From NCBI GenBank assembly GCA_016934645.1, contig JAFGSL010000357.1, positions 1-5,330 on the forward strand: a stretch of 5,330 bases of DNA, given 5' to 3'. How positions within the stretch are numbered: the stretch's first letter is position 1; each line of letters starts with the position of its first letter. A program made the position numbers and the translations under genes. Source of the DNA: Anaerolineae bacterium (lineage in GTDB: Bacteria > Chloroflexota > Anaerolineae > B4-G1 > SLSP01). Below, in pieces: positions 2 to 5,330 of the stretch. Under the pieces are notes generated by a model that saw nothing but the letters and a program-made list of their open reading frames with translations, was not told the origin of the DNA and made no database searches.

Positions 2-628
2 CGCAAAGGGCTGCGCTTCTATCTGAGCGCGCATCCCGACATCGCCATCGTGGGTGAAGCGGGCGACAGCCAGACCGCCATCGAAGGCTGCACCGAGCAC
101 GTACCCGATGTCGTCCTGATGGATCTGGTGCTGCCGCTCAAACCGGGCGGGCAGCCCTACGATCAGGGCGGTGTGCAGGCCACGCGCCAGATCCGCCAGA
201 ACAGCCCGCACACGCAAGTCGTCGTACTGACGAGCTACGCCCAAGACGAACTCCTCTTCTCTGCGATCAAGGCCGGCGCCCTCTCGTACCTGCTCAAGGA
301 CGCCGACGCGCCGACCGTGCTCCACGCCATCCGCGCGGCCAGCCGGGGCGAGGCAAGCCTGCATCCGCGCATCGCCCGGCGGCTGATGAGCGAGATCAGC
401 GCACCAGGCCCCACGCACGATCCCGCCGCCGAGTTGACTGCGCGGGAAATGGAAGTACTCCACCTCATCGCCCAGGGACAGAGCAACGCCGAAATCGCCG
501 CCGAACTCGTCATCACCGAGCGTACGGTCAAGGCACACGTGAGCAATTTGCTCAGCAAACTCCATCTCTCCGACCGCACCCAAGCCGCCGTCTACGCTTG
601 GCGCGAAGGGCTAATCGAGAAATCATAA
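2..628 (+). CDS. NarL/LuxR-family response regulator, 5' end cut off by window
   Basis: This is a two-component DNA-binding response regulator. Reading frame 2 is open from the first bases, and the leading residues RKGLRFYLSAHPDIAIVGEA match the usual start of helix 1 and strand 2 of a receiver domain. The GTG at 50 is therefore an internal Val, not a start. Numbering from the window edge (208 residues visible), the phosphoacceptor is D41 in VVLMDLVLP, the switch Thr is T77 in VVVLTS and the conserved Lys is K99 in YLLKDA. Only about 13-15 residues, including the N-terminal acidic pair, should be missing. A linker leads to a LuxR-type helix-turn-helix at about 145-202 (LTAREMEVLHLIAQGQSNAEIA ... 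ERTVKAHVSNLL). The loop after the phosphoacceptor (LKPGGQPYDQGG) is about eight residues longer than the common PGMDG form. A partner histidine kinase is probably just upstream, outside the window. The target genes are unknown; the downstream operon is possible but unproven. Confidence 0.95.
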   Translation, partial: RKGLRFYLSAHPDIAIVGEAGDSQTAIEGCTEHVPDVVLMDLVLPLKPGGQPYDQGGVQATRQIRQNSPHTQVVVLTSYAQDELLFSAIKAGALSYLLKDADAPTVLHAIRAASRGEASLHPRIARRLMSEISAPGPTHDPAAELTAREMEVLHLIAQGQSNAEIAAELVITERTVKAHVSNLLSKLHLSDRTQAAVYAWREGLIEKS

Positions 629-723: not shown

Positions 724-790
724 AGCAAAAGACGATCTACTGAATCCACATGAATTTGAATGTTGTTCGTGAAGATTCGTCGTTTACTTT

Positions 791-795
791 GGAGG
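791..795 (+). promoter_or_regulatory. Ribosome binding site that sets the reductase start
   Basis: GGAGG lies 8 nt before the ATG at 804. An in-frame ATG at 750 would add 18 residues (MNLNVVREDSSFTLEDKR) that do not look like SDR sequence and has no Shine-Dalgarno match before it. The 804 start is therefore preferred. Confidence 0.85.
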
Positions 796-803
796 ATAAA
801 CGC

Positions 804-1574
804 ATGTCAGTTTTGGATCGTTTCCGTATGGACAACCGCGTCGCGCTCATCACCGGTGGGAACCGGGGATTAGGCAAGGCAATGGCCGAGGCGCTCGCCG
901 AAGCCGGAGCCAACGTCGTGGTGACGAGCCGCAGCGCGGACGATGCCGCCACCGTCGCGGAACAGCTAACATCGCAGTACGGGCGAGTTTGCCGGGGCTA
1001 CGCCTGCGATGTCACGAAACCGGCGGACATCACAACACTGGTCGCTAACGTGATCGCCGAGTTCGGCCAGATCGACGCACTAATCAATAACGCTGGTATC
1101 AACATCCGTGGGTCAATCGAGGCGCTGTCTCTAGAAGAATTTCGCGAGGTTCAGGACACCAACGTCACCGGGATGTGGCTGCTCTGCCGCGAAGTCGCGC
1201 CGCACATGAAAGTCCGCCGTTACGGGCGCGTCATCAACGTGGGCTCGATGCTCTCCGTGGTGGCGATATCCGACCGCACACCCTATGCAACAAGCAAAGG
1301 TGCAGTACTACAATTCACGCGCGCGCTGGCGCTGGAATGGGCACCGTGGAACATCACCGCCAACGCGATGCTGCCGGGGCCCTTTGGAACGGAGATGAAC
1401 CGCCCGCTGCTGGAAGATCCAGAGAAATACCAGGCATTTGTGTCACAGATACCCTTGGGACGGTGGGGGGAGCTTGAGGAGATCGGCAGCCTGGCACTCT
1501 TCCTGGCAAGCGATGCTTCGAGCTTCGTTACCGGTGCGGGTATCCTGATTGACGGCGGCTGGACAGCGCGCTAA
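804..1574 (+). CDS. Classical short-chain dehydrogenase/reductase (SDR)
   Basis: This is a cytoplasmic NAD(P)(H)-dependent oxidoreductase of 256 residues, the normal size for a classical SDR. Visible hallmarks are the TGGNRGLG dinucleotide-binding motif (17-24), D69 in CDV, the NNAG motif (95-98), and the catalytic set N120, S148, Y161 and K165 (Y-ATS-K). The C-terminal ILIDGGW segment is also typical. Basic residues at R21 and at R43, the latter after strand 2 (VVVTSRS), favour NADP(H) over NAD(H); this is inferred from family rules. The overall style resembles FabG-like 3-oxoacyl-ACP reductases and gluconate 5-dehydrogenase-like enzymes, but the substrate cannot be read from sequence. The stop is 21 nt before the ABC ATPase start, which suggests co-transcription with the exporter. 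No separate promoter was recognised directly upstream, where the structured element sits. Confidence 0.95.
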   Translation: MSVLDRFRMDNRVALITGGNRGLGKAMAEALAEAGANVVVTSRSADDAATVAEQLTSQYGRVCRGYACDVTKPADITTLVANVIAEFGQIDALINNAGINIRGSIEALSLEEFREVQDTNVTGMWLLCREVAPHMKVRRYGRVINVGSMLSVVAISDRTPYATSKGAVLQFTRALALEWAPWNITANAMLPGPFGTEMNRPLLEDPEKYQAFVSQIPLGRWGELEEIGSLALFLASDASSFVTGAGILIDGGWTAR

Positions 1575-1595: not shown

Positions 1596-2393
1596 ATGGA
1601 ACACGATACAAAACCTGCTATTCAAACGGAGAATCTCACTCGCCGCTTCGGCGAACTGACCGCCGTGGACACTCTGAACCTGTCCGTGCCGCGCGGTGTG
1701 ATCTTCGGATTTCTAGGACCGAACGGCGCGGGCAAGTCCACGACGATTCATATGGTCATCGGGTTGCTACCACCAACAGCCGGGACGGCCTACGTGAGCG
1801 GCTTCGATGTCATCCAAGCGCCGTTGGAGGTCAAGCGGCGCATCGGCGTAGTACCCGAAAACCTCAACCTTTACGAGCGCCTTACTGCGACCGAACAAAT
1901 CGAGTTGGTGGGACGCTTGTACGGCTTGACCCAGGCTGAGATCAAACGCCGCATTCCGCCGCTACTGGAGATGTTAGAATTGGACGACGCGGGTAACAAG
2001 ATGATCCTCGACTACTCGCAGGGGATGCGCAAGAAGACGGCGATGGCTTGCGCGCTCATCCACGCACCTGAGATCTTGTTCCTCGACGAACCCTTCGAGA
2101 GCATCGATCCGATTTCCACGCGGGCGATAAAAGCCACGCTGCGCGAAATGGTCGAGCATCGCGGCACGACAATCTTCTTTTCCACGCACGTTATGGAACT
2201 GGCGGAACGCTTCTGCGACCAGGTGGGCATCATCAACAAGGGTCAGCTTGCTGGCGTGGGCAGCATCCCCGAACTACGCGAGCGCGCAGCCCTGCCGCCC
2301 GACGCAGCGTTGGAAGACGTCTTCCTGCACACGGTGGGCGCAGAAGTGACCGATCAAGGGCTGCTAGATTGGCTGACGGGACAGGTTGGATAA
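1596..2393 (+). CDS. ABC-2-type exporter ATP-binding protein
   Basis: This is a 265-residue nucleotide-binding subunit that powers export by the permease encoded next to it, at the cytoplasmic face of the membrane. Motifs in order: aromatic A-loop residue F18, Walker A GPNGAGKST (41-49), a Q-loop with Glu in place of Gln (VVPENLNLY, E88), signature YSQGM (140-144) instead of LSGGQ, Walker B ILFLDE (160-165), D-loop ESID (168-171) and switch H198 in FFSTH. A Glu-type Q-loop and a YSxGM signature are usual in the DrrA/NatA/CcmA-like group of ABC-2 exporters, so the enzyme is probably active. The unusual D-loop (ESID rather than SGLD) is a minor deviation. A GAGG Shine-Dalgarno sequence (1587-1590) precedes the ATG by 5 nt. 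The stop codon lies one base before the permease ATG. Substrate unknown. Confidence 0.95.
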   Translation: MEHDTKPAIQTENLTRRFGELTAVDTLNLSVPRGVIFGFLGPNGAGKSTTIHMVIGLLPPTAGTAYVSGFDVIQAPLEVKRRIGVVPENLNLYERLTATEQIELVGRLYGLTQAEIKRRIPPLLEMLELDDAGNKMILDYSQGMRKKTAMACALIHAPEILFLDEPFESIDPISTRAIKATLREMVEHRGTTIFFSTHVMELAERFCDQVGIINKGQLAGVGSIPELRERAALPPDAALEDVFLHTVGAEVTDQGLLDWLTGQVG

Positions 2394-2394
2394 C

Positions 2395-4098
2395 ATGTGG
2401 CGCGATCTGAAGAACTTGCTATGGCTCCAAGGCCGGCTGACTGTGGCGATGTTCCGCACGCGCCGGGCAAGCGAACAACTGCACGTGGCGGGCGTTGTAC
2501 TCCGGATTGTCGGGTTTCTATTCGCCATACCATTTTTCATCGCGATGGGGGCTGGGATCGCCGCCATCAGCATCCTGCTGCTCTCGCCCCAAGCCACCTA
2601 CGAGTTACTGATGCTGGTGAACAACGGTCTGTTCTTCGTATGGCTGATCCTGCCGGCATCGTATAGCTCGCAGATCGTAGAACGCTTCGAAATGTCACGC
2701 CTGTTCGCCTACCCGGTCCGCTTCCGCAGCATCGTGGTGGGCAGCACGCTCATCTCCCTGTTGACGATGACCGGAGGATGGTCGGTCTTGATCCTTAGCG
2801 GCGAGATCGTCGGATTAGCATGGCAACAACCGCTGGCGCTACCGATAATCCTATTGGGAACGTTGCCGACCTTCGCCGTACTCGTACTCACCGGCCGGAT
2901 CATGGAAGACCTCTTCGATCTCGTCGCCGGAGATCGGCGCCTGCGCACATTAGTGCTCACGGTAATGATGCTGCCATTTATGCTTTTGGGACTCGGACAA
3001 TCATTCTTCCAAGGTCTCATTCAGAACTACGACCAGATCGCCTTCCTGAAAAAGCTGCCGATTCAGGATTTGCTCTCACAGTTGGCGGCGGCGCAAAATG
3101 TCAGCCAGTTTCTGGAAATCCTGAGCCCTTCGCGTGTGCTGGTGTGGCTACCCGCGGGCTGGACTACAGCAGGTATGGCGTCTGCATCCGCCGGAGCGTG
3201 GGGACGCAGCATACTCTTCCTAGCCATATCATTGGCAGCCGTCGGGCTGCTGCTGTGGCTGCATGCGGGCATCACTCGGCGGCTGATGCAAGGTGCAGCG
3301 GTAGGACTGGGCGCAGAGCGCGTGCACAGCCGCGAATCGCGTTTCGCCGGACGCTTGCCCGGTCCGCCGACGTTCTGGGCGCTACTGCGCAAGGATTGGA
3401 CATACCTCTGGCGCAGCCCTGCTACACGGCGGATGATCTTCGCCGGACTGATGTCGATACTGCCAGCGATATTCATCCTCTGGCAGCCGAGTATCGAGGA
3501 CACCGACTTTCATGCCATTGCGCCGCTGGCCGCTGGGCTCTTTATCACTGTGATGCTGAGTATGATGATCAACATGAACATCACGTCGAACTACTTCGGC
3601 ATCATCGACCGGGAGGGATTTGGCGCGCTTGCGCTGTCGCCGATAGATCGCCGCCAGATCATCATCTCGGCAAATGCAATCGCCTTTCTCGTTGCCATGG
3701 CACTGTACTCCCTGGTACTTGTTCTGATAGGCGCGTTTACCCACACCTGGATCGTCGTCCCCTTGGGGTTGTGCCTGGGATTGTGTATGCAAATCAGCGG
3801 TAGCCCATTGTACACGCTCGCGGCGATCATCGGCCCCTACCGGATGCAACTTCAATTCACGTCCGGCACGCGCCAGCGGGGCAATATGTGGGGGATGTTA
3901 GCCTGGCTTATTTCAGGCGTCCCGATGGCTCTGCTCCTGGTAATGCCGTACATTTTTTGGAAACCGGCACTGTTCGTCACCATTCCCGTGGCAATCCTCT
4001 ACAGCGTCGTCGTGTATGCCCTCACGCTCAAGCCGTTAGCAATGCTGTTGCAACGCCGTGAGCACACCATCCTGGAAGCCGTGACAACGGAAACATAA
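2395..4098 (+). CDS. ABC-2-type exporter permease, about 12 membrane segments
   Basis: This is an integral membrane protein of 567 residues, the likely channel partner of the preceding ATPase. About twelve hydrophobic segments can be seen, near residues 35-63, 68-90, 112-142, 145-168, 186-206, 272-293, 347-363, 374-394, 427-448, 452-478, 501-522 and 525-545. The two halves look related. LFAYPVRFRSIVV (103-115) matches LALSPIDRRQIII (412-424), and both halves begin with an amphipathic, basic stretch ending in RR (about 5-24 and 330-346). The pattern resembles the large 'putative ABC exporter' permeases rather than the usual 6-segment ABC-2 subunit. The ATG at 2395 is chosen because it follows the ATPase stop by one base, favouring translational coupling. 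A TTG at 2386 would overlap that gene and add only three residues. No clear intrinsic terminator follows; the downstream bases are A-rich. Substrate unknown. Confidence 0.88.
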   Translation: MWRDLKNLLWLQGRLTVAMFRTRRASEQLHVAGVVLRIVGFLFAIPFFIAMGAGIAAISILLLSPQATYELLMLVNNGLFFVWLILPASYSSQIVERFEMSRLFAYPVRFRSIVVGSTLISLLTMTGGWSVLILSGEIVGLAWQQPLALPIILLGTLPTFAVLVLTGRIMEDLFDLVAGDRRLRTLVLTVMMLPFMLLGLGQSFFQGLIQNYDQIAFLKKLPIQDLLSQLAAAQNVSQFLEILSPSRVLVWLPAGWTTAGMASASAGAWGRSILFLAISLAAVGLLLWLHAGITRRLMQGAAVGLGAERVHSRESRFAGRLPGPPTFWALLRKDWTYLWRSPATRRMIFAGLMSILPAIFILWQPSIEDTDFHAIAPLAAGLFITVMLSMMINMNITSNYFGIIDREGFGALALSPIDRRQIIISANAIAFLVAMALYSLVLVLIGAFTHTWIVVPLGLCLGLCMQISGSPLYTLAAIIGPYRMQLQFTSGTRQRGNMWGMLAWLISGVPMALLLVMPYIFWKPALFVTIPVAILYSVVVYALTLKPLAMLLQRREHTILEAVTTET

Positions 4099-4161
4099 CC
4101 AACAACAAAAAAATCGCAATATTATCTCAAAACACAAACGAACAGCACGACCAAAGTACCA

Positions 4162-4191
4162 TTGACATCCCCCTCTCCCTTATGCTAAACT
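4162..4191 (+). promoter_or_regulatory. Sigma70-type promoter with extended -10
   Basis: A perfect -35 TTGACA (4162-4167) is followed by an 18-nt spacer and -10 TAAACT (4186-4191). An extended -10 TG dinucleotide sits at 4183-4184 (TGCTAAACT). Transcription should begin near 4198, giving a leader of roughly 105 nt before the pilin gene. The position in a 207-nt gap after the permease gene fits a new transcription unit for the pilin/protease pair. Confidence 0.7.
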
Positions 4192-4218
4192 AGCTTGTAA
4201 AAGGGAGCTGGCTCTTGT

Positions 4219-4287
4219 ATGGAACGTGTGCAAAATTGTACGAAACTAGACGTGTTTCCAAGTCGTCTGCACGCTTTCTGTAGATGA
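4219..4287 (+). CDS. Possible 22-codon leader ORF in the pilin 5' UTR
   Basis: ATG at 4219 opens a 22-codon frame ending at TGA 4285-4287 (MERVQNCTKLDVFPSRLHAF, then Cys-Arg). AAGGGAG (4201-4207) lies 11 nt upstream, somewhat far for an optimal Shine-Dalgarno sequence but the same heptamer as the one before the pilin gene. The ORF ends 3 nt before that second AAGGGAG, so its translation could influence pilin initiation. A weak hairpin AGACG/CGTCT (4248-4268) lies inside it. It may be a regulatory leader peptide or chance; nothing in the peptide resembles a known attenuator. Confidence 0.25.
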   Translation: MERVQNCTKLDVFPSRLHAFCR

Positions 4288-4290
4288 GCC

Positions 4291-4297
4291 AAGGGAG
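4291..4297 (+). promoter_or_regulatory. Ribosome binding site of the pilin gene
   Basis: AAGGGAG is placed 8 nt before the ATG at 4306, a strong and well-spaced Shine-Dalgarno sequence that supports this start. Confidence 0.8.
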
Positions 4298-4305
4298 TTA
4301 TAGAC

Positions 4306-4614
4306 ATGCGAAAAAGGGATCTCTTTCATAAAAAAGGTCAGGGGTTAGTAGAATACGCCCTGATCCTGGCACTTATCGCCATTGTCTCTATCGTGGCACT
4401 CTCCCTCCTTGGGACATCAGTCAGCGATGTTTTCAGCCAAATTACCGAAGCACTCTCAGGAGACGGTGGGGGTGGGGGCGGTGACGGACAGCCACCTCCT
4501 GGAGGAACCTGTTATGGCTCGCTGCTGCTTCCATACCTCATCGGATCAACAACCCTATTTCTCCTGATTTTCAGGCCGGGTCCGCAACGGTCAACTGCAG
4601 TTATGGGAGTATGA
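4306..4614 (+). CDS. Flp-type (type IVb) prepilin-like protein with extra C-terminal tail
   Basis: This is a 102-residue protein. The N-terminus is a class Flp prepilin signal: a short basic leader (MRKRDLFHKKG), predicted cleavage after G11, mature residue E16 at +5 and Y17 at +6 (QGLVEY), then a hydrophobic helix to about residue 35. Such subunits are cut by a TadV/PilD-type prepilin peptidase and assembled by a Tad secretion system; none of those genes is in this window. Flp pilins normally end at about 55-70 residues. This one continues with a Gly-rich linker (52-61), PPPGG, a single Cys (C69), a second hydrophobic stretch (72-89) and a tail with R90 and R95. The tail could be a second membrane anchor or a C-terminal sorting signal, or the product of a frame change in the G-rich tract. 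The stop codon overlaps the start of the membrane protease gene (ATGA), implying coupled translation. Confidence 0.85.
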   Translation: MRKRDLFHKKGQGLVEYALILALIAIVSIVALSLLGTSVSDVFSQITEALSGDGGGGGGDGQPPPGGTCYGSLLLPYLIGSTTLFLLIFRPGPQRSTAVMGV

Positions 4615-5267
4615 ATAGCAGCGAAACCGACGTATCCGGAAATGCCACGCAAGATACGGGAAAAAGGCGATTCCTCTCTGTAAGAGGCGAAGTAGTATTG
4701 GCGGTCTCAGGTTTATACCTGGGGATTTTCCTCTACTACTCTAAACGCTTGCCCTGGTCGCCCATTGGAGTGGTCATCCTGACACTCACTGCATTCTGTC
4801 TGGCCTATTCCCTCAAATACCTCCATCCCACTACACTGTCAGCCCTCAATATAACCCGCAAACGAGCAGGACTCTACATCCTGGTAGGACTACTCGTGAT
4901 TATGCCAGGATGGTTCTTCGACAGCTTGGCTTCCTATCTGTCTGGAAGAGGATGGTGGTCTTTTGGAATCGCGAAGTCCCCTCCCCTCATCATTTCGATC
5001 CTCATTGTTGCTATATCCGAAGAGCTATTTTTCCGCGGCTATGTACAAGGGCGCTTGAAGTCACTAGGTGGCAACAGATGGATGCGTATCGCTACTGTCA
5101 GTGCTATATTTATGTTCTACAAGGTCGTCGTCCATGCCTGGGATGGATGGGCCTTTGCCACCTACGCCGGATTTTTTGCGTTCGGCGCGACCGAGATGTT
5201 ATTTGAGACTTTTTGGGTCGACTGGACAGGGAGCATCGTCACTTCCATTAGAGTTATTGCACAATAA
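4611..5267 (+). CDS. CPBP-family (Abi/Rce1-like) intramembrane glutamic protease, 3' end possibly frameshifted
   Basis: This is a 218-residue membrane protein with hydrophobic segments near 28-43, 52-70, 88-103, 126-141, 161-175 and 182-198. Motif 1 of the CPBP family is clear: E137, E138 and R142 in SEELFFRGYVQGRL. H175 in FYKVVVHAW is the candidate motif-2 histidine, although the residue four before it is Lys rather than the usual Phe. The TGSI sequence (206-209) that normally precedes the last histidine motif is present, but the frame then ends SIRVIAQ without that His. The neighbouring frame reads ELLHNKNIR there. The gene may thus be slightly truncated, carry a sequencing error, or be a divergent active form. 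Family members process proteins at the membrane, confer bacteriocin immunity, or act as dedicated sorting proteases. The ATG overlaps the pilin stop; GGGAG at 4605-4609 is too close to act alone, so coupling to pilin translation is likely. Confidence 0.8.
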   Translation: MNSSETDVSGNATQDTGKRRFLSVRGEVVLAVSGLYLGIFLYYSKRLPWSPIGVVILTLTAFCLAYSLKYLHPTTLSALNITRKRAGLYILVGLLVIMPGWFFDSLASYLSGRGWWSFGIAKSPPLIISILIVAISEELFFRGYVQGRLKSLGGNRWMRIATVSAIFMFYKVVVHAWDGWAFATYAGFFAFGATEMLFETFWVDWTGSIVTSIRVIAQ

Positions 5268-5312
5268 GAACATTAGGTAGGTTTAACTGGCGAAGCGGAA
5301 GTTGACTAGATT

Positions 5313-5327
5313 AAGCGCCCATCGCTT
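5313..5327 (+). other. Small hairpin near window end
   Basis: AAGCG/CGCTT forms a 5-bp stem with a CCCAT loop, about 45 nt after the protease stop. No T-run is visible before the window ends, so it could be part of a terminator or simply chance. Confidence 0.2.
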
Positions 5328-5330
5328 GCG

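Follow-up and report, generated by a model that had tools for sequence, protein, structure and literature searches.

The first experimental report of C-terminal sorting by a CPBP-family membrane protease in a prokaryote dates from 2025 (PMC11980579) and describes how the Myxococcus CPBP protease MrtX cuts such a tail and how this cut needs conserved cysteines; lipidation of the cysteine of myxosortase substrates is proposed there but not shown. The paper also covers JDVT-CTERM/MrtJ, in which one tailed substrate with an invariant cysteine goes with one CPBP protease, GlyGly-CTERM/rhombosortase, in which a tripartite C-terminal tag goes with an intramembrane protease, and the CAAX prenyl endopeptidase MmRce1, which cuts prenylated C-terminal CAAX boxes; it contains no mention of pilin, Flp or Chloroflexota. 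Here we describe a gene pair on contig JAFGSL010000357.1 of an Anaerolineae bacterium (Chloroflexota; assembly GCA_016934645.1), which was analysed over its entire length of 5,330 bp (the window). A Flp-type prepilin with an added C-terminal tail is encoded there by a gene which overlaps that of a CPBP-family membrane protease. Pilins are regarded as being cut once, at the N-terminus. In this pair the tail is probably a dedicated C-terminal sorting signal and the CPBP protein its sorting protease, acting on a pilin which would also be cut N-terminally. The features of the two genes are as follows.

4306..4614, plus strand: Flp-type prepilin with C-terminal tail, 102 amino acids (open reading frame, homologues, Pfam, alignment)
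4336..4356, plus strand: GXXXXEY prepilin peptidase motif, G11-QGLV-E16Y17, predicted cut after G11 (from the sequence; motif as in PMC10934763)
4456..4509, plus strand: variable Gly/Pro-rich linker, residues 51-68
4510..4533, plus strand: CYGSLLLP signature, residues 69-76, proposed recognition motif containing the only Cys of the pilin, C69 (alignment)
4516..4572, plus strand: C-terminal hydrophobic helix of the tail, residues 71-89 (alignment, AlphaFold2)
4573..4611, plus strand: tail end with R90 and R95, residues 90-102 (alignment)
4611..4614, plus strand: ATGA, shared by the pilin stop and the protease start
4611..5267, plus strand: CPBP-family (Rce1-like) membrane protease gene, 218 amino acids as read, 3' end broken
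5019..5036, plus strand: CPBP motif 1, E137-E138-LFF-R142, predicted catalytic glutamates
5133..5135, plus strand: CPBP motif 2 histidine, H175
5250..5330, no strand assigned: sequence foreign to the protease family, in place of the HxxxD third motif of the relatives (alignment)

The small protein carries GXXXXEY, the motif used by Flp prepilin peptidases (PMC10934763), followed by a hydrophobic helix, as Flp/Fap (type IVb/IVc) pilins do. Its Flp_Fap score in Pfam (31.6 bits) is marginally below the cut-off of 32.2, and precomputed annotation assigns PF04964 to the same protein, listed as P0035. The preliminary description of this DNA, which was made from the sequence without database searches, had read it as a prepilin of the Flp type extended by a tail, and this holds in each part: the prepilin motif, the Gly/Pro-rich linker, the lone C69, the hydrophobic stretch at residues 72-89 and R90/R95. 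AlphaFold2, run with 35 aligned pilins, predicted one helix at residues 13-53 and another at 71-89, the linker between them being of low confidence (mean predicted local confidence, pLDDT, 66; predicted template modelling score, pTM, 0.32). The homologues include three organism-named tailless pilins, from Thermoflexus, Anaerolineales (both Chloroflexota) and a Deferrimicrobiaceae bacterium. The ordinary Flp pilins of Thermoflexus (P0088) and Anaerolineales (P0112) resemble the window pilin in the N-terminal half, including GXXXXEY, but they are tailless and 57 residues long.

We compared the tail among the best 120 of 725 pilin homologues, which become 119 once the window pilin is removed. A CYG tail was found in 38 of the 119, all 38 of which read CYGS-x-LL, and a CYG-type motif was absent from 80. 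The other pilin, P0099, has SYGSLLLP in place of CYGSLLLP and is a natural Cys-to-Ser variant of the tailed pilin. Alignment A2 consisted of the window pilin and 34 of the 38 CYG pilins, leaving out P0075, P0077, P0080 and P0083 as well as P0099. Across these 35 rows the frequency of the commonest residue averaged 0.99 over C69-P76, 0.82 over Flp residues 12-34 and 0.31 over the linker; it should be noted that the rows were chosen by the presence of CYG, so that the C-Y-G columns are partly selected, whereas the remaining five signature columns are not. As C69-P76 is better conserved than either the linker or the Flp helix, the tail is more than chance, and no part of the pilin is conserved better than CYGSLLLP. 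Both the conservation of the tail among relatives and that of its cysteine were borne out, the latter being explained in part by the selection for CYG.

The tails share the tripartite layout of a C-terminal sorting signal, comprising a short motif, a membrane helix and a basic end. A hydrophobic stretch was present in 35 of 35, and the length from Cys to the end was 34 residues in 23 of 35. The basic end is not universal, because the net charge of the tail was positive in 26 rows, zero in 6 and negative in 3. The Gly-Gly motif which had been suggested near the cysteine did not hold up: GG occurs within four residues upstream of Cys in 8 of 38 tails, and the residue immediately before Cys is D or E in 31 of 38. 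The residue after the motif is Y or F in 22 tails and I, A or L in 16 (P0054, P0057-P0059, P0061-P0063, P0066-P0068, P0071, P0072, P0075, P0077, P0080 and P0083). NCBIfam returned no sorting-signal model for the window pilin (T3SSXpsH alone, E value 0.15), and none of MYXO-CTERM, JDVT-CTERM, Synerg-CTERM or any other sorting-signal model for six tailed relatives up to an E value of 1.

The overlap of the pilin stop codon with the protease start, which the preliminary description had pointed out, was confirmed, with the four bases ATGA joining the two open reading frames. A ribosome-site-like AAGGGAG lies 8 nt upstream of the pilin ATG. The only G-rich stretch upstream of the protease ATG is GGGAG, 1 nt away, and since this is too near for an ordinary ribosome site, translation of the two genes is likely to be coupled.

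The neighbourhood appears to recur in relatives. Linkage was deduced from contigs of identical length in protein tables, not from DNA, comparing 119 pilins with 39 proteases and excluding the window. Eight of the 38 tailed pilins were on contigs which match contigs of the protease clade in exact length (1970, 2021, 1076, 3144, 1995, 2052, 9688 and 3166), with the source database agreeing in all eight. In a control with lengths displaced by as much as 100 bases in either direction, tailed pilins matched 0.44 times on average and at most 3 times. That tailless pilins should stand next to the same protease had been named in advance as a finding which would speak against a sorting pair; two of 80 (P0104 and P0114) match protease P0025 at length 1995, all from the source jgi. 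The level reached in the displaced-length control (mean 0.66, maximum 3) would account for both, but they may be true neighbours. Across nine pilin/protease pairs, including that of the window, the distances correlate (Mantel r 0.88, with 1 of 5000 permutations as high), which is expected under co-inheritance and alone is no proof of interaction. At least in P0159 (202 amino acids, on a 960-bp contig) pilin and protease share one contig, because one frame holds both: a CYGSLLLP pilin runs into the catalytic half of a CPBP protease whose first helices are missing, which may reflect a deletion or an assembly join. The recurrent neighbourhood that had been predicted is thus supported by contig statistics. 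Matches were confined to the Y/F tails (8/22), with 0/16 among the I/A/L tails (Fisher p 0.012).

The protease was assigned to the Rce1-like/CPBP family (PF02517) at 35.2 bits (cut-off 22.4), confirming the identification of the overlapping gene, and its relatives have the CPBP fold. About 40 known proteins make up its clade. In alignment A1, which holds 31 of 34 protease relatives (P0011, P0033 and P0034 were left out), both glutamates and the Arg of motif 1 and the motif 2 His are invariant in all 31 rows, the His also in 43 CPBP proteins. All three CPBP motifs (EExxxR, His and HxxxN/D) occur in the 30 unbroken rows, of which motifs EExxxR and His are also present in the window copy. Motif 2 of the clade (A1 residues 167-175) reads KxxxH where the other fetched CPBP proteins have FxxxH, and the Phe aligned to that of FxxxH sits eight residues before the His. 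The best structural match was SpdC in the SagB-SpdC complex, a CPBP-fold partner protein; SpdC is a scaffold. A PDB sequence search with A1 gave no match up to an E value of 10, and identity to MmRce1 (4cad) was 14%.

The 3' end of the window copy is broken. Position 5267 is not the natural gene end, as relatives run on with VIHIGWDL... to a full length of 230-248 amino acids (mostly 234-235). The window protease departs from its family once codon 213 has been read, at position 5249, with 81 bases of the contig still to come, and reaches a stop five codons later; because of this divergence it lacks the third motif, which relatives show as HIGWD. An inserted element or insertion edge, or else an assembly join at the contig end, may explain these last 81 bases. 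Read from the contig edge, the minus strand gives RKRWALNLVNFRFAS then a stop, possibly (as a guess) a transposase end. A search for an insertion-sequence end in 5250-5330 gave one chance-level match among plasmids (E value 3) and none in an exact search of viral sequences.

The pair shares parts of its layout with several described systems. MYXO-CTERM with MrtX, MrtC or MrtP likewise combines a Cys motif, a membrane helix and a basic end with a CPBP protease carrying EExFFRGY[LV][LQ]GR, but the substrate here has a prepilin leader rather than a Sec signal peptide, and the NF040914 Mrt_core model scored 32-36 bits on the window protease and four relatives against a cut-off of 100. Among five Myxococcota proteins the same model scored 111-122 in four and 43 in L001. 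Matches below the cut-off are unspecific, with 38 of the 43 CPBP proteins of our A3 set matching at 0.001, and it follows that at least 12 of the 17 CPBP proteins fetched without a myxosortase-like pattern match Mrt_core. JDVT-CTERM/MrtJ is similar in having one tailed substrate, one CPBP protease and an invariant Cys, and differs in its protease (NF033192 scored 14.0-23.5 bits in four relatives and 23.3 in the window, cut-off 75) and in its substrate, which here is a Flp pilin with CYGSLLLP. GlyGly-CTERM/rhombosortase shares the tripartite tag and an intramembrane protease, but the latter is a rhomboid serine protease of another family, and GG is not conserved here.

A tree was built from 53 rows, 12 of them from the protease clade, omitting the duplicates L036, L037, L040, L043, L048, L049 and L060, the loci L046, L054, L062 and L064, which have no usable frame, and the wrongly framed L022 and L038. 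The clade stood separately on a long branch with support of 100/99 and fell outside a 15-row myxosortase-like group, with no nearest group resolved and the bootstrap not settled. Membership of the protease in the myxosortase group, to which the preliminary description had linked it, was not supported by the Mrt_core scores and was dropped. In the core tree, the CPBP domain of exosortase E (the VPEID-CTERM protease) came out as a weak sister (88/61, bootstrap not settled), represented by L012, L024 and L007, the last a confirmed member of that family. Exosortase E differs in being fused to an exosortase domain, and its TIGR04162 model scored 20.7 bits on P0001 (cut-off 150).

Searches were extended to other sequence collections. 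A profile search of genome contigs with the protease alignment returned 24 loci, all distant CPBP and mostly from Myxococcota, with no close protease relative among them; the genome-contig search used two strict peptide patterns. Within 2.5 kb of the 24 CPBP loci no Flp gene was found by motif expression in frames under 250 amino acids, and at three of them a small minus-strand frame fitted the loose tail expression and looks spurious. Planctomycetota locus L015 (235 amino acids, matching from residue 1) was considered and rejected, with no tailed small gene seen alongside. In viral contigs, A2 found nine pilins: L026, the sole match reaching residue 69, is tailless, and the remaining eight align within residues 3-51 only. 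No CPBP relative was found in viral contigs, and the pilin had no match in plasmids up to an E value of 1. A degenerate DNA pattern for the tail motif, applied to two phyla, matched 1 of 294 Planctomycetota genomes and 0 of 296 Actinomycetota genomes, against five matches and one match, respectively, for the reversed pattern used as a control; the single forward match reads CYGSLFLP, and its frame encodes no pilin. This comparison has no bearing on Chloroflexota. Nothing on CYGSLLLP or on a pilin and CPBP sorting pair was found in full-text searches of a collection which omits most subscription papers.

How the pair might work can be set out in steps. Prepilins are oriented with the N-terminus inside and the remainder outside, and because of this rule Cys69 is expected outside. 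The N-terminal prepilin helix would insert the pilin in the membrane, and the second helix, in the tail, would return towards the cytoplasm, so that R90/R95 lie inside while Cys69 comes to the outer face of the membrane, an arrangement shared with the substrates of sortase-like systems. Prepilin peptidase would cut after G11. The CPBP protease from the overlapping gene would recognise CYGSLLLP together with the helix and cut at or beside the Cys, thereby taking off the second helix; lipidation of the Cys may come first, as proposed for myxosortase substrates. The product would be a pilin without a second membrane anchor, which could join a filament or stay on the surface via a C-terminal lipid. 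The pair would then operate in the manner of JDVT-CTERM/MrtJ or MYXO-CTERM/myxosortase without being a member of either, its known kind being CPBP-based C-terminal sorting and its new elements the signal, the separate clade and, unexpectedly, the pilin substrate.

The rest of the contig comprises the genes upstream and the gap before the pilin gene.

2-628, plus strand: LuxR-type response regulator, cut at the left edge
750-1574, plus strand: SDR oxidoreductase
1596-2393, plus strand: ABC ATPase
about 2395-4098, plus strand: presumed ABC permease, 567 amino acids
4162..4191, plus strand: possible sigma-70-type promoter, TTGACA, 18 nt, TAAACT (10/12 matches; weak)

The presumed permease had no match in NCBIfam up to an E value of 10 or in Pfam up to an E value of 1. 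The promoter candidate lies in the 207-bp gap between the presumed permease gene and the pilin gene and is weak, as promoter-like sites number three in 3900-5330 against a shuffle mean of 1.3; it would turn the pilin and protease genes into a separate unit, which is possible. No Tad assembly genes were seen among the scanned open reading frames of the window, and no lipidating enzyme is encoded among its genes.

The coupled sorting pair proposed in the preliminary description thus gains from the conserved tail and the recurrent neighbourhood, but neither a Gly-Gly motif nor a place among the myxosortases was supported. Weighing against a sorting pair are the indirect nature of the linkage, the fold shared with SpdC, the unusual motif 2 of the clade, the broken window copy and the I/A/L tails without a detected partner in this protease clade, which may have another enzyme or a partner located elsewhere. 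The tail could instead belong to a minor, base-anchoring pilin and serve it as a permanent second membrane anchor or in assembly, with the CPBP protein as a non-proteolytic chaperone or scaffold. The structural match to SpdC and the 16 unpartnered tails would fit this, and a packing role is conceivable for the conserved LLLP helix. However, the invariant glutamates, R142 and H175 would be needless in a scaffold, and it is not a helix face that is conserved but a short Cys motif where the edge of the membrane is predicted, a placement seen in known sorting signals, so we consider a permanent anchor unlikely. CPBP genes next to bacteriocins are known, and a small gene immediately preceding a CPBP gene, with the genes of an ABC ATPase and its presumed permease upstream, might suggest a toxic or signalling peptide which the CPBP protein protects against or processes; but motif and alignment identify the small protein as a Flp pilin, with an N-terminal half as in ordinary pilins, its sequence has no double-glycine leader, and 207 bp separate it from the presumed permease gene, which leaves this the least probable of the accounts. 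Only slightly less improbable is that tail and protease are unrelated neighbours and the protease goes with the upstream ABC transporter. The ATPase and presumed permease are consistent with such an association, as are weak matches (16-28 bits, cut-off 435) to NF041647 ABC_perm_CPBP, the NCBIfam model of ABC-permease/CPBP fusions; yet it is the pilin and not the upstream genes which the protease overlaps, by four bases, and the repeated same-length contig pairing, the concordant distances and the fusion P0159 argue for a link between the two.

If the CPBP protein does process the pilin C-terminally, its action could also be limited to removing the tail, with no lipid or anchor, the tail serving as a safety catch which bars entry into the filament until it is cut. 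The window genes include no lipidating enzyme, and D or E precedes most of the cysteines, which is unlike known lipoboxes. The occurrence of Cys in 38 tails and Ser in only one (P0099) suggests Cys chemistry, with the proviso that CYG was a selection criterion, and we think this restricted version rather doubtful.

The fullest version of C-terminal sorting, which we put forward tentatively, is that a new sorting system has arisen outside the myxosortases, consisting of CYGSLLLP and its own CPBP clade and yielding a type IV-filament subunit which two membrane peptidases process, one at each end, whose Cys would carry a lipid and which would serve as a surface lipoprotein or filament anchor. If it holds, the sorting pair would extend CPBP-based C-terminal sorting by a signal not described before, a protease clade of its own and another kind of substrate. 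CYGSLLLP could be used as a search tag for further substrates, and the pair is small and self-contained. A pilin with a removable second anchor would also raise questions about how filaments are assembled, released and anchored in bacteria with little-studied envelopes.
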